Below, piece after piece: positions 35,344 through 41,430 of a stretch of DNA of 64,000 nucleotides; within the stretch, counting starts at the first letter, position 1, and every line of letters begins with the position of its first letter. The stretch comes from Hydrogenophaga sp. (GTDB lineage Bacteria; Pseudomonadota; Gammaproteobacteria; Burkholderiales; Burkholderiaceae_C), in the NCBI RefSeq assembly GCF_019264445.1, contig NZ_JAHVAB010000081.1, forward strand, positions 62,001 through 126,000, in the 5' to 3' direction. Both the position numbers and the translations under genes were made by a program. The notes beneath the pieces are model-generated. The model was given only the letters and a program-made list of their open reading frames with translations, was not told where the DNA came from and made no database searches.

Positions 35344-37668
35344 TCAGGGCTTCGATTCGCCCCGCAGCCACGCACCAAACGAGCTGAAGGCCTTGCCGAT
35401 TTCGTTGCCGAAGTTCGTCTTGTACTGAACGCCGCTGGTGTCCGAAATCGCGGACACCCAGCCGCCTTCTCGCCACTCGGCGTACAGCCAGTCATCGCCT
35501 TCGCGCACCAGGCCGTCTGGTGGCGCGGGTGGCTGCGCCACGGGCACGCCCTTGAGCGCCGCGCCCATGTAGTCGATCCAGATCGGCAGCGCGATGCGCC
35601 CGCCCGATTCGTGGCCACCCAGGCTGCGCGGCTTGTCGTAACCCACCCACACGGCGGTGGCCAGCGTGGGCTGGTAGCCGGCAAACCAGGCGTCCACGGC
35701 GTCGTTGGTGGTGCCGGTCTTGCCGTACAGGTCGGGTCGTTTGAGCAGCGCTTGCGCGCGCGCCGCGGTGCCGGTGCGGGTCACGTCGTTGAGCAGGCTG
35801 CCCACCACGAAGGCGTTGCGCGCTGGAATGACACGCGTGTCTTCTGTCAGCGGGGCGGGTGGGGGCGCTTCAAACAGCACCTTGCCTTGCGCATCGGTGA
35901 TCTTTTCGATGACCACGGGCGTCACGGGCCAGCCGCCATTGGCCAGCGTGGCGTAGGCCTGCGCCATCTGCAGCGGTGTGGCGCTGCCGGTGCCCAGCGC
36001 CAGGGTGAGGTCGTTGGGCTGTCGCGCCACGTCCAGCCCAAAGCGCCCGGTCCAGTCCCGTGCGGGCTGTGTGCCGGTGTGCTGCAGCACGCGCACGCTG
36101 GCCAGGTTACTCGAACGCGTGAGCGCTTCGCGCACCGTGATCGGTCCCTGGTGCTCGCCACTGGCGTTGTTCGGGCTCCAGCCGTTGGCGGCGGTGAACG
36201 GCAGGTCGTCGACCAGCGTGGCCGGCATCACGCGCGCTTCCAGGGCGGCGGAGTAGAGCAGCGGTTTCAACGCCGAGCCAGGTTGGCGCCAGCCCTGCGT
36301 GACGTGGTTGAAGGGTTGGTTGGTGAAGTCGAACCCGCCCACCAGCGCGCGCACGCGGCCGGTTTGCGGATCCAGCGACACCAGCGCCGCTTCGGCCTCC
36401 GGCCATTGCGAGAGGGCCCAGGTGGTGGTCGTCTTGCCTTTGGTTTTGCTGGTGCTGCTGACCACGCGCACGACGGCGCCGCGACCGATCTTCAGCGGTG
36501 CCTTGGCCTTGGGGTCCAGCGCGCGCTGCGCCCAGCGAAGGCCTTCGCCCTGCACGTCGACGCGCTCACCACTGGCCAGCTGAACCTGAACGGCCTTGGG
36601 GCTGGCGGCGAGCACGATGCCCACCCGCAGGGTTTCGTCGTCGCGGTGGTCTTTCAGCGCTTCGGCGGCCGCGCGCTCCAGCTCGGCGCCGTTGCCCGCA
36701 GGCAGGGATTCGGTGTCTTCCGGGCCGCGCCAGGCGCCCCGGCGGTCAAACGCCATCACGCCGCGCTGCACTGCGGTGTGCGCCGCGCGCTGGTCGGCGG
36801 CGCGCAGCGACGTGGTGACACGCAGGCCGCTGGAGTAGGCCTCGGTGCCGAAGCGCTCGACCACTGCACGCCGTGCCATTTCGGCCACGTGGGCCGCGTG
36901 CACGCTGCGCGTGCCCGGCGTCCGGATGGTGAGCTTCTCGGCGCGCGCGGCGGCGAGTTGCTGGTCGTTGATCACCTCGGTGGCGCGCATGCGCTCGAGC
37001 ACCACGCGCTGGCGCTGCGTGGCGCGCTCGAAGTTGGCCACCGGGTTGGCGTAGTAGGGGTTCTGCGGCAGACCCGCGAGCATGGCGGTTTCGGCCAGCG
37101 AGAGTTTGTCCAGGGGTTTGCCGAAGTAAATCTGCGACGCCGCTGCAAAGCCATAGGCACGCTGGCCCAGAAAGATTTCGTTGAGGTAGATCTCCAGGAT
37201 GCGGTCTTTGGAGAGTTCGTCTTCGAGCTTGAGCGCGAGCCAGATTTCCTTGGCCTTGCGCTCGGCAGAAAACTCGCGGGTGAGCAGCATGGTGCGCACG
37301 AGCTGCTGCGTGATGGTGGACGCGCCCTGCTTGCGCCCGCCAGTGACGGCCGCCACCAGCGCGCGCATCATGCCTTTGGGGTCGACACCCGAGTGCTCGC
37401 GAAAGCGCGCGTCCTCCACGGCCAGCACGGCCTGCTGCATCAAGGGTGGAATCTTTGAAAGGGGCAGGTATTCGCGCCGTTCGGTACCGAACTGCGCGAT
37501 CTCTTCACCATCGGCCGTGTAGACCTGTAGCGGCAGTTTCGGCTGGTAGCGGACGATGCGGTCCAGGGACGGCAGATCGAAGGTCGAGGCGGGCACCGGC
37601 AGCGCCACGATGGTGACGGCGGCAAACGCCAGGACGATGGCCGTGCGGCGCGGGGTGAGCTCAAGCAT
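35344..37668 (-). CDS. Class A penicillin-binding protein (PBP1A family)
   Basis: 774 aa. N-terminal membrane anchor (about 10-28), GT51 transglycosylase with Glu85 in VEDARFREHSGVDPKG and QGASTITQQLVRTMLL, an inserted OB-like region (about 340-440) and a transpeptidase with SxxK at about 465 (PGSALKPL), SSN (RSSNLAS) and KTG (YGKTGTTNDAVDAWF). It polymerises and crosslinks peptidoglycan in the periplasm and is a beta-lactam target. It is divergent from creBCD across 163 bp, which may reflect a functional link. Confidence 0.94.
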   Translation of the reverse strand: MLELTPRRTAIVLAFAAVTIVALPVPASTFDLPSLDRIVRYQPKLPLQVYTADGEEIAQFGTERREYLPLSKIPPLMQQAVLAVEDARFREHSGVDPKGMMRALVAAVTGGRKQGASTITQQLVRTMLLTREFSAERKAKEIWLALKLEDELSKDRILEIYLNEIFLGQRAYGFAAASQIYFGKPLDKLSLAETAMLAGLPQNPYYANPVANFERATQRQRVVLERMRATEVINDQQLAAARAEKLTIRTPGTRSVHAAHVAEMARRAVVERFGTEAYSSGLRVTTSLRAADQRAAHTAVQRGVMAFDRRGAWRGPEDTESLPAGNGAELERAAAEALKDHRDDETLRVGIVLAASPKAVQVQLASGERVDVQGEGLRWAQRALDPKAKAPLKIGRGAVVRVVSSTSKTKGKTTTTWALSQWPEAEAALVSLDPQTGRVRALVGGFDFTNQPFNHVTQGWRQPGSALKPLLYSAALEARVMPATLVDDLPFTAANGWSPNNASGEHQGPITVREALTRSSNLASVRVLQHTGTQPARDWTGRFGLDVARQPNDLTLALGTGSATPLQMAQAYATLANGGWPVTPVVIEKITDAQGKVLFEAPPPAPLTEDTRVIPARNAFVVGSLLNDVTRTGTAARAQALLKRPDLYGKTGTTNDAVDAWFAGYQPTLATAVWVGYDKPRSLGGHESGGRIALPIWIDYMGAALKGVPVAQPPAPPDGLVREGDDWLYAEWREGGWVSAISDTSGVQYKTNFGNEIGKAFSSFGAWLRGESKP

Positions 37669-37831: not shown

Positions 37832-38530
37832 ATGCGCAAGCGCATTCTGCTGCTGGAAGACGAGCAGGCCATTGCCGACACGCTGATCTACGCGCTGCAC
37901 AGCGAGAGCTTCGATGTCACCCATGTGCGCCTGGCGCGCGAGGCGCTCACCGCGCACGAGAAGACCCCACCCGACCTGGCCATTCTCGATGTCGGTGTGC
38001 CCGATGGCAGCGGCTTCGATGTGTGCCGCGCGATCCGCAAATCGAGCGATCTGCCCATCGTGTTCCTGACCGCGCGCCACGAGGAAATCGATCGCGTGCT
38101 CGGTCTGGAGTTGGGCGCCGATGACTATGTGGTGAAGCCCTTTTCGCCTCGCGAAGTCTGCGCGCGTGTGCGTGCGATCCTGCGCCGAAGCGCAGCCGCG
38201 GCGTCCGCCCTGGCGCCAATGGCCCCTGCGTCCGCCGGAGTCGCCCTCAAGCTGGATGAGCAGGCGCAGCGCATCGTGTGTGCGGGGCAGGTACTGGCGT
38301 TGACCCGGTATGAATTCCTGCTGCTGGCCACGTTGCTGCGGCGGCCGCAGCGCATCTTTTCGCGGACCGAGCTGATGGAGCTCGTGTGGGGCGGGGCGCC
38401 GCACACCTCCGACCGCACGGTGGATGCGCACGTCAAACTGCTGCGCGCCAAGCTGCGCGACCAAGGCTTGCAGGGCGAGGTGATCCAGACGCACCGCCAC
38501 ATGGGTTATTCGTTGCGCCTGCCGGACTGA
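37832..38530 (+). CDS. creB: CreB-type response regulator
   Basis: 232 aa. Receiver with Asp53 (LAILDVGVPDGSGFD) and the conserved Lys in DDYVVKPFSPRE, then a winged-helix DNA-binding domain (about 135-230; RTELMELVWGGAPHTSDRTVDAHVKLLRAKL). The naming rests on the adjacent creC and the diagnostic creD. ATG at 37832; the 37754 track start is 26 codons too early. creC starts 6 bp downstream. Confidence 0.92.
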   Translation: MRKRILLLEDEQAIADTLIYALHSESFDVTHVRLAREALTAHEKTPPDLAILDVGVPDGSGFDVCRAIRKSSDLPIVFLTARHEEIDRVLGLELGADDYVVKPFSPREVCARVRAILRRSAAAASALAPMAPASAGVALKLDEQAQRIVCAGQVLALTRYEFLLLATLLRRPQRIFSRTELMELVWGGAPHTSDRTVDAHVKLLRAKLRDQGLQGEVIQTHRHMGYSLRLPD

Positions 38531-38536
38531 ATCACC

Positions 38537-39976
38537 ATGCGCATCGGCCTGCGGCTCCTGCTCGGCTTCTTTCTCGTGCTGGGGATCTCCCTGTTCGTGG
38601 TGCTGCGCGTGCTGCTCGACGAAGTCAAGCCCGGCACGCGCCTGGCCATGGAAGACAGCCTGATTGACGCGGCGTACACGCTCGCGCAGCTGGCCACGCC
38701 AGACATGAAGGCGGGCACGATGGCCGACGGCTTCTTTGCCCGCTCCCTGCAGGGCCTGCACGCCGCCAGGCCGGGCGCCCACATCGGAGGCTTCAGCAAG
38801 GACCGCATCGACTACCGCATCAGCATCACCGATGCCCAGGGCATCGTGCGCTTCGACACGCAGCCCGAGGCGGTGGGCCAGGACCATTCGCGCTGGAACG
38901 ATGTGGTGCGCACCCTGCGCGGCGAGTACGGCGCGCGCTCCAGCCCCGCGAGCCCTTACGACGTGGACAACACTGTCATGCACGTGGCCGCCCCCATTCG
39001 CGATGGCGACCGCATCATCGGCGTGCTCACAGTCTCCCGGCCCAACCAGCGCCTGCAGCCCTACATTGATCGCAGCGAGCAGCGCATCCTGCGCTGGTCT
39101 TGGGTGTTGCTCGGCTTGTCACTGCTCATCGGCGTGCTGTTCAGCTGGTGGATCGCGAGTTCGCTCTCTCGGCTGCGTGGTTATGCCAACGCCGTGTCGC
39201 GCGGCGAGCGAGCGCCCTTGCCCGTGCTCGGGCGCCTGAGTGGCAGCACGGAGTTCAGCGATCTGGCGGGCGCACTGGAGCGCATGCGGCTCAAGCTGGA
39301 AGACAAGGCCTATGTGGAGAGCTATGTGCACACGCTCACCCACGAACTCAAAAGCCCGCTGGCTGCGATACGCGGGGCCGCGGAACTGCTGCAGGAAGAA
39401 CTGGCATCCGCAGACCGCCAGCGCTTTGCCGGGAACATCCAGCGCCAGGCCGAGCGCCTGCGGTTGCTGGTGGACAAGCTGCTGCAGCTGGCCCATGTGG
39501 AGCAGATGCGCGGGCTGGCTACGCGCGAGCCGGTGGACCTGAGCGCGCTCACCCGCGAACTGTTGGCGCGACTTGAACCGCGCCTTCGCCTCAAATCAAT
39601 TCGGGTCCGCGATGAGCTGGGGCAGGGGCATGTGGTGCGCGGTGATCCGTTCCTGATCGGTCAGGCCTTGCAGAACCTGCTGGACAACGCGATCGATTTT
39701 TCACCCGCGCACGGCGAGCTGTGGCTGCACCTGCGGGCCGAAGGCGACCAGCTGGAGTGGTCGGTGCGCGACCAGGGGCCGGGCATTCCGGACTACGCGC
39801 GTGAGCGCCTTTTTGAGCGCTTCTACTCGCTGCCGCGTGGCGAGACGGGAGACAAGGGCTCGGGCCTCGGTCTGTGCCTGGTGAAAGAAGTGAGCGATCT
39901 GCACGGCGGGCAGGTGTGGGTGGAAAACGTCTCGCAGCCCACCGGTTGCCTCGCCCGCTGGCGTTTGCCCGCCTGA
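38537..39976 (+). CDS. creC: CreC sensor histidine kinase
   Basis: 479 aa. First helix (about 4-20, LRLLLGFFLVLGISLFVVL), periplasmic sensor region (about 30-180), second helix (about 190-212), HAMP linker, HisKA with His near 269 (HTLTHELKSPLAAIRGAAELL) and HATPase_c (NLLDNAIDFS, DQGPGIPDYA, KGSGLGLCLVKEV). In enterobacteria CreC responds to carbon source and growth in minimal medium, and the related BlrB of Aeromonas controls beta-lactamases. The signal here is unknown. Confidence 0.92.
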   Translation: MRIGLRLLLGFFLVLGISLFVVLRVLLDEVKPGTRLAMEDSLIDAAYTLAQLATPDMKAGTMADGFFARSLQGLHAARPGAHIGGFSKDRIDYRISITDAQGIVRFDTQPEAVGQDHSRWNDVVRTLRGEYGARSSPASPYDVDNTVMHVAAPIRDGDRIIGVLTVSRPNQRLQPYIDRSEQRILRWSWVLLGLSLLIGVLFSWWIASSLSRLRGYANAVSRGERAPLPVLGRLSGSTEFSDLAGALERMRLKLEDKAYVESYVHTLTHELKSPLAAIRGAAELLQEELASADRQRFAGNIQRQAERLRLLVDKLLQLAHVEQMRGLATREPVDLSALTRELLARLEPRLRLKSIRVRDELGQGHVVRGDPFLIGQALQNLLDNAIDFSPAHGELWLHLRAEGDQLEWSVRDQGPGIPDYARERLFERFYSLPRGETGDKGSGLGLCLVKEVSDLHGGQVWVENVSQPTGCLARWRLPA

Positions 39977-39981
39977 AGCGT

Positions 39982-39997
39982 TTCACACCGGCTTCAC
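39982..39997 (+). promoter_or_regulatory. cre-tag (CreB-type binding site) upstream of creD
   Basis: TTCAC-ACCGGC-TTCAC: a perfect match to the cre/blr-tag TTCACnnnnnnTTCAC known from E. coli and Aeromonas. It lies 75 bp upstream of creD, the classical CreB target, just past the creC stop. Confidence 0.85.
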
Positions 39998-40071
39998 AAA
40001 ACGCTCTGGCAGCGCACGCCCGCTTCGAGGGCGACCGCGAGACTGGCCGGGTTCTCACCACGGAGCCCGAA

Positions 40072-41430
40072 TTGAACAAATACCCCCTGCTCAGCAAAGT
40101 CCTGGTCATTGGCCTGCTGATGCTTTTGCTGTCCATTCCCCTGATGATGGTGCGCGACGTGATCCAGGAGCGCAGCCTGAACCGCGAGGCGGCCACCCAG
40201 GAGGTGGCGCGCGCGCATGCCGGTGCACAGACCATCACCGGCCCTGTGCTCTATGTGCCCTACACCGAGACCTTCACACGCACCGTGGCCGTGGGCGACA
40301 GTGGCCACACCCGAGAGGAACGCGTCACGCAGGCGCACGCCGTGATCCGCTTCCCCACGTTGATGGAGACCCGCAGCCAGCTTGCCACCGAAACGCGCTG
40401 GCGCGGCGTGTTCCCGATCACCGTGTACACGAGCTTGAACCATAGCAGCGGCCGTTTCGTGTGGAGCGATGTGGAGCCCAAAGAGAAAAATGGCCAGATC
40501 AACCTGGGTCAGCCGCGCCTGCTGATGGGCGTGAGCGATCTGCGCGGCCTGCTGAACGCGCCGCAGTTGAAAGTGGAGGGGCGTGCGGTGGCCGTGGCGC
40601 CAGCGCCTGCCGCGCAACGCCTGCCGCTGCCCTTGGCCGCGTCGCTGGAGGTGGCGCAGTTGCGCCCGGGCGCGGTGCTGCCCTTCGAGCTGCAGCTGGA
40701 CCTGGCGGGCACCGAGCGCATCGGCTGGGTGCCGCTGGCCGACGAGAACCGCGTGCAGCTGCAGTCCACCTGGCCTCACCCCAGCTTCGGCGGTGACTTT
40801 CTGCCGCGCACGCGAGCGGTGAGCGCGCAGGGCTTTGATGCCGCATGGAGCGTGCCGTCCCTCTCGACCCAGGCGCAGCAGCAGTTTGTCCAGCAACAGG
40901 GTGAACCACGGCGCGAACCCGAGAGCTTCTCGGTCTCGCTGGACAACCCGGTGGACGTCTATCGCATGACCGAGCGCGCCACCAAGTACGGAATGATGTT
41001 CATCGTGCTCACCTTCGCGGCCTTCTTCGTGCTGGAGATGGTGAAGCGCTGGCGCGTCCACCCCATGCAGTACTTGATGATCGGCGCCGCGCTGGTGTTG
41101 TTTTTCCTGCTGCTGCTCTCCATCTCCGAACACCTGGATTTCGTGTGGGCGTACACCGTGGCCAGCATCGCCTGCATTGGCCTGCTCGCGCACTACCTGC
41201 GGCATGTACTGGGAGGCTGGGCGCCAGGGTTGCTCATGAGCGGCCTGCTGGTGGCGCTGTATGGCGTGCTCTACGGCATTCTGGTGTCGGAGGACAACGC
41301 GCTGATGATGGGTTCGCTGCTGCTCTTCGGCGTGCTCGCCGCCATCATGATCGCCACGCGCAAGGTCGACTGGTACAGCGTGATGGGCGCACCCGCTGCG
41401 CAGAAGCCAATGACCGACCCGCAGGCCTGA
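40072..41430 (+). CDS. creD: CreD inner membrane protein
   Basis: 452 aa, the usual CreD length. An N-terminal helix (about 8-25, LVIGLLMLLLSIPLMMVRDVI), a large periplasmic domain (about 30-305; GPVLYVPYTE, LRGLLNAPQLKVEG) and five C-terminal helices (about 308-440). The start is TTG at 40072 with CGGAG upstream; the resulting N-terminus (MNKYPLLSKVLVIG) aligns in kind with E. coli CreD, whereas the 39874 track start lies inside creC. A cre-tag sits between creC and creD, so creD may have its own CreB-driven promoter. Confidence 0.92.
   Translation: MNKYPLLSKVLVIGLLMLLLSIPLMMVRDVIQERSLNREAATQEVARAHAGAQTITGPVLYVPYTETFTRTVAVGDSGHTREERVTQAHAVIRFPTLMETRSQLATETRWRGVFPITVYTSLNHSSGRFVWSDVEPKEKNGQINLGQPRLLMGVSDLRGLLNAPQLKVEGRAVAVAPAPAAQRLPLPLAASLEVAQLRPGAVLPFELQLDLAGTERIGWVPLADENRVQLQSTWPHPSFGGDFLPRTRAVSAQGFDAAWSVPSLSTQAQQQFVQQQGEPRREPESFSVSLDNPVDVYRMTERATKYGMMFIVLTFAAFFVLEMVKRWRVHPMQYLMIGAALVLFFLLLLSISEHLDFVWAYTVASIACIGLLAHYLRHVLGGWAPGLLMSGLLVALYGVLYGILVSEDNALMMGSLLLFGVLAAIMIATRKVDWYSVMGAPAAQKPMTDPQA

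Follow-up and report, generated by a model that had tools for sequence, protein, structure and literature searches.

The CreBC two-component system has been studied in Escherichia coli, Aeromonas, Pseudomonas, and Stenotrophomonas. In E. coli, the response regulator CreB binds the cre-tag in vitro and creD is activated (PMC3962086). In P. aeruginosa, the CreBC-CreD system is tied to the penicillin-binding protein PBP4 and to the beta-lactam response; in PBP4 mutants, creD is upregulated 25-60-fold and comes back down once creBC is removed (PMC2654508). A betaproteobacterial example is Burkholderia cenocepacia, where a creD homologue is upregulated more than 30-fold under envelope stress (PMC12152626). 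In S. maltophilia, creD is expressed more strongly once creBC has been deleted, and a CreB variant mimicking the phosphorylated form is without effect (PMC4689548). The sign of the CreBC effect on creD varies by species (PMC3962086, PMC2654508, PMC4689548). Our literature search for CreB or CreC in Hydrogenophaga found none.

A creB-creC-creD cluster with a cre-tag before creD

We analyzed a 64,000-nucleotide stretch of DNA (the window) from the genus Hydrogenophaga, to which its close relatives belong. The window encodes, clustered in the order creB-creC-creD on the + strand, a response regulator of the OmpR/PhoB type with Response_reg and Trans_reg_C domains (creB; 37832-38530), a sensor histidine kinase (creC; 38537-39976), and an inner membrane protein (creD; 40072-41430). 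All three exceed the NCBIfam equivalog cut-offs: CreB scores 320.7 bits with NF008296 (cut-off 273), CreC 610.6 bits with NF008312 (cut-off 356), and CreD 497.1 bits with NF008712 (cut-off 275), in addition to 483 bits with the Pfam CreD model. The window CreB reaches 205.7 bits with the PhoB model, far under its cut-off of 296.2, and its recognition-helix segment DRTVDAHVKLLRAKLR resembles that of E. coli CreB, DRTVDTHIKTLRAKLR. The start of creD is best taken as the TTG at 40072, which has a GGAG Shine-Dalgarno sequence at 40062-40065. In relatives, the aligned position, ahead of AACAAATACCCC, is occupied by ATG, GTG, or TTG. Divergent from creB lies a gene of the PBP1A family (35344-37668, - strand), a neighbor that among the compared loci is limited to the closest relatives, and the gap common to this gene and creB has no tag. 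A search for a plasmid origin gave no match.

A sequence-only reading of this DNA had reported a perfect cre-tag directly before creD, and we confirm that the site is genuine. TTCACACCGGCTTCAC, at 39982-39997 on the + strand, matches TTCACN6TTCAC exactly, with half-sites starting at 39982 and 39993. It is the only exact copy in the 64 kb scanned, for which dinucleotide shuffles predict 0.05 copies. The tag starts 5 bp 3' of the creC stop codon (TGA, 39974-39976) and ends 74 bp upstream of the creD start, within a creC-to-creD distance of 95 bp. A sigma-70 scan of the gap region found no consensus -35 and no ordinary sigma-70 promoter, and a repeat finder run on the gap gave nothing useful.

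The tag is conserved before creD and tracks CreC

We next compared the sequence upstream of creD across relatives, using the reversed pattern as a control. Within the family, where the 66 creD loci include the window's own, the 300 bp upstream of creD contain the tag with at most one mismatch in 56/66 loci and exactly in 39/66; the reversed pattern is found in 6/66 and 0/66, respectively. Within the genus, 26 of 28 creD loci have the tag with at most one mismatch in the 200 bp upstream and 18 have it exactly, and the control gave no match of either kind in the same 28 loci. Conservation is patchy among loci of the order and class outside the family (at most one mismatch in 17/46), and the positive control, E. 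coli K-12, gave an exact tag over the end of creC. The loss of the tag in relatives that keep creBCD, which the sequence-only reading had named as grounds for refutation, thus did not occur. These comparisons also dispose of the idea that the match is a chance one, given that a genome this large should contain about five copies. The genome-wide count does resemble chance, because the 4.43 Mb genome holds 5 exact tags and 4 exact copies of the reversed pattern, so a perfect tag somewhere in the genome means little. However, a position before creD that is kept in 56/66 family genomes, with no exact control match, already refutes this explanation and leaves it virtually no probability. It is the position and conservation of the tag, not its count, that are not due to chance.

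To relate the tag to its presumed regulator, we searched creD genomes without an adjacent creC for CreC, using NF008312 at its curated cut-off, and scored an adjacent creC found by tblastn as CreC present. The tag occurs in 95/117 creD loci where the genome has CreC versus 1/20 where CreC is absent (Fisher p about 5e-11, with shared ancestry not corrected for). The single tagged locus without CreC, in G123, is located at a contig start, and creC may therefore be missing from the assembly only. The 19 other sampled genomes with creD and no CreC above the cut-off (G386, G336, G292, G609, G506, and 14 others) have no tag, and creD must therefore be under other control in these genomes. Conversely, 22 creD loci in CreC-bearing genomes lack a tag within one mismatch, and many of them retain degenerate forms such as TTCACACGCGCTTCGT.

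Given that creC ends just upstream of the tag in most loci, including the window, the tag might be retained for something other than CreB, such as the creC end or its transcript, with creD expressed only by read-through from creBC. Gene rearrangements speak strongly against this. Where creC is unlinked (G114, G034, and G087 among others) or convergent with creD (G090 and G182), the tag is usually still found before creD. In a Hydrogenophaga subgroup, represented by Hydrogenophaga pseudoflava (L328; 484-2413), creC and creD are separated by genes for a MarR regulator and a MATE transporter, and the operator remains with creD. Together with the absence of the tag from the 19 creD genomes without CreC and the fixed spacing between half-site and -10 described below, these cases largely refute the idea of a tag kept independently of CreB, which we regard as very improbable. 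The presence of the tag follows CreC and not adjacency to creC. At one locus with an unlinked creD (L246; G114:C111, approximately 131501-131536), a cre array lies after creC and before a gene with VIT and VWA domains, and the ORF that comes next resembles an exosortase as judged by eye.

Half-site arrays and the spacing to the -10 element

We aligned creD promoters on the tag, sorted them into classes, and scored the class profiles for matches to TTCAC and TATAAT, with shuffled sequences as the reference. In the commonest class of the family (33 aligned sequences), half-sites start at positions 1, 12, 21, and 32 and the -10 element at 47, while a three-site class with only 4 members has half-sites at 1, 12, and 23 and its -10 at 38. 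The two main Hydrogenophaga classes, which as genus classes are made up of related sequences, are one with half-sites at 1, 12, 34, and a degenerate one at 23 (-10 at 49), and the class that includes the window with half-sites at 1, 12, 32, and 43 (-10 at 58). The arrays differ in their internal offsets, and yet the last half-site and the -10 are always 15 bp apart from start to start (32/47, 23/38, 34/49, and 43/58), leaving 10 bp between them. Both peaks exceed the shuffles in all four classes. The class with its -10 at 49 (the g96 class) shows a further peak, also half-site-like, that overlaps the -10. The longest operator that we saw among relatives is at L077 (G047), where the stretch from a tag at -121 down to the -10 reads as about seven 11-bp repeats.

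In the window, this layout places a degenerate second tag, CGCACGCCCGCTTCGA, at 40013-40028 (+ strand; half-sites at 40013 and 40024) as the promoter-proximal pair, and a predicted -10 hexamer, GAGACT, at 40039-40044 (+ strand), 10 bp past the last half-site and with no consensus -35. The proximal pair reads CGCAC-N6-TTCGA and is weak, with 3/5 matches in each half-site. In the alignment of 11 Hydrogenophaga promoters, positions 32 and 43 are nevertheless half-site peaks above the shuffles, as is the -10 peak at position 58, whose AGACT is invariant. For comparison, the E. coli creD promoter, read by eye, has half-sites at 1, 12, 22, and 33 and a -10, TATCCT, at 48, and the E. coli phoA promoter has CTGTCATAAAGTTGTCAC followed by 10 bp and then TATAGT. 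A 10-bp gap between the last half-site and the -10, in a promoter that lacks a -35, is the layout expected of PhoB-type class II activation.

Proposed mode of creD control

We propose with good confidence that the tag is the distal pair of a CreB operator in the creD promoter and that the CreC signal turns creD on through PhoB-like recruitment. Four direct observations underlie this proposal: the tag sequence, how widely it is conserved, the way it co-occurs with CreC, and the constant distance between the last half-site and the -10. Phosphorylated CreB would bind the 11-bp direct repeats as head-to-tail dimers, with the operator serving as the upstream part of the creD promoter. The promoter-proximal half-site, ending 10 bp before the -10, would replace the -35 element, and we therefore propose that CreB recruits sigma-70 RNA polymerase, in the manner of PhoB at phoA. 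We infer that CreB binds here and that its contact with the polymerase resembles that of PhoB; because the phoA spacing recurs in all four promoter classes and in E. coli creD, PhoB-like activation rather than repression is the likely outcome.

A second reading concerns the direction of control. CreB could bind at this site and act mainly to repress creD by covering the promoter, as is reported for S. maltophilia, where creD rises on deletion of creBC and is unaffected by the phospho-mimic (PMC4689548). S. maltophilia has a near-tag at the equivalent place before creD, and two loci resembling those of its family (L108 and L109) share the same half-site and -10 geometry; since S. maltophilia CreBC represses creD, the architecture does not set the sign of control. 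On the other hand, activated CreB raises creD in E. coli, in P. aeruginosa and, by report, in Aeromonas, and the operator occupies the -35 region and the DNA upstream of it without covering the -10. This placement, with a weak -10 and no -35, suits an activator. We thus consider repression unlikely at this promoter and favor activation. The earlier suggestion of a true CreBC-CreD circuit is well supported on comparative grounds, given a tag that tracks CreC and is conserved across the genus and the family and in part of the order, although a tag before creD does not by itself fix the direction in which creD is controlled.

The CreB regulon

The sequence-only reading had also offered the tag as a query for finding the rest of the regulon, including possible beta-lactamase or peptidoglycan genes. 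In this genome, the bare 16-bp tag is not useful for that purpose, as its 5 exact copies compare with 4 of the control, and none of the four copies away from creD is at a gene of either kind. We rejected all four as targets: one lies over the start of an ABC-transporter ORF, one is inside a DUF305 ORF, one is inside a ThiF gene, and one precedes a short-chain dehydrogenase gene by 11 bp, too short a distance from the start codon to accommodate a promoter. Among 30 genus genomes, several have bare-tag counts somewhat above the control that are unconnected to creD, and some N6 variants recur.

We also built a sequence-only profile of the full Hydrogenophaga promoter. Searched against the window's genome, it finds creD at E = 7e-17; the next best hit is a partial match at E = 0.007, and there is no other strong match. 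In ten other Hydrogenophaga genomes of the same promoter class, creD is again the only strong match. The creD matches are expected because the profile was built from these promoters, and what is informative is that no others appear.

A second profile, run on 42 family genomes, recovers creD in the majority, along with a small number of further sites, each of which is a single-genome occurrence. In one example, a four-half-site array with the correct -10 spacing precedes an alpha-2-macroglobulin gene (L300, G017:C1:3013987-3014042, - strand; L335); downstream of it in G017 comes a gene for a PBP that has both a transglycosylase and a transpeptidase domain. This pair is a possible CreB-controlled peptidoglycan operon. 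For peptidoglycan targets, these promoter-profile results thus offer a single lead, found in a relative, and nothing in the window's own genome. In a second example, a complete array and -10 precede a 27-codon ORF, MDIPHSIWITAALFALVVGLCIIILRK (L244, G116:C1:2028165-2028219), a possible CreB-controlled small membrane protein. A complete array is also found before a gene whose membrane-protein product carries a linalool dehydratase/isomerase (Ldi) domain (L245, G182:C11:330841-330897), and other sites precede a radical SAM gene (G017) and a gene for a 186-amino-acid membrane protein (G033).

Taking the arrays and the searches together, we lean towards the view that the 16-bp cre-tag of the literature is only half of the operator and that the full CreB site consists of three to four half-sites in a variable layout, the last locked 10 bp before the -10. 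By this complete rule, the betaproteobacterial CreB regulon would shrink to creD almost everywhere, plus sporadic lineage-specific targets such as the alpha-2-macroglobulin/PBP operon.

Discussion

Our data carry the creD circuit into the Burkholderiales. They show that inheritance of the operator goes along with that of the two-component system, even where the genes are unlinked, and they argue that the single conserved target among these bacteria is creD, rather than beta-lactamase or central metabolism genes. The array and its spacing to the -10 also provide a definition of CreB-dependent promoters that can be tested and that is stricter than the bare tag.

By its sequence, the site looks like a CreB-type operator that resembles the E. 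coli switch. The two systems share the creB-creC-creD gene order, an exact tag at the creC-creD junction, a second half-site pair, and a distance of 10 bp to the -10. As the switch looks to be the same, these results extend a known circuit to a new group and do not reveal a new one. There are nonetheless differences. The E. coli tag overlaps the 3' end of creC, whereas the window tag begins after the creC stop; the second pair follows about 21 bp on in E. coli but 31 bp on, and in more degenerate form, in the promoter class of the window; and the E. coli cluster opens with creA, while creB in the window is instead preceded by the divergent PBP gene. In addition, the E. coli regulon includes several metabolic genes (PMC3962086), whereas we found creD alone. 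The Aeromonas BlrAB system is homologous and its blr-tag has the same sequence (PMC3660660); BlrA controls beta-lactamase genes, but in the window's genome neither the 5 exact tags nor the profile matches are at any beta-lactamase gene. In P. aeruginosa, too, creD stands out, being the clearest of the CreBC-dependent genes by a wide margin (PMC2654508). Lastly, the promoter resembles the pho box of E. coli phoA in three respects: its direct half-sites have an 11-bp period, 10 bp separate the end of the last one from the -10, and a -35 is lacking. The half-site itself, in contrast, is TTCAC here and of the CTGTCAT/TTGTCAC type in the pho box.
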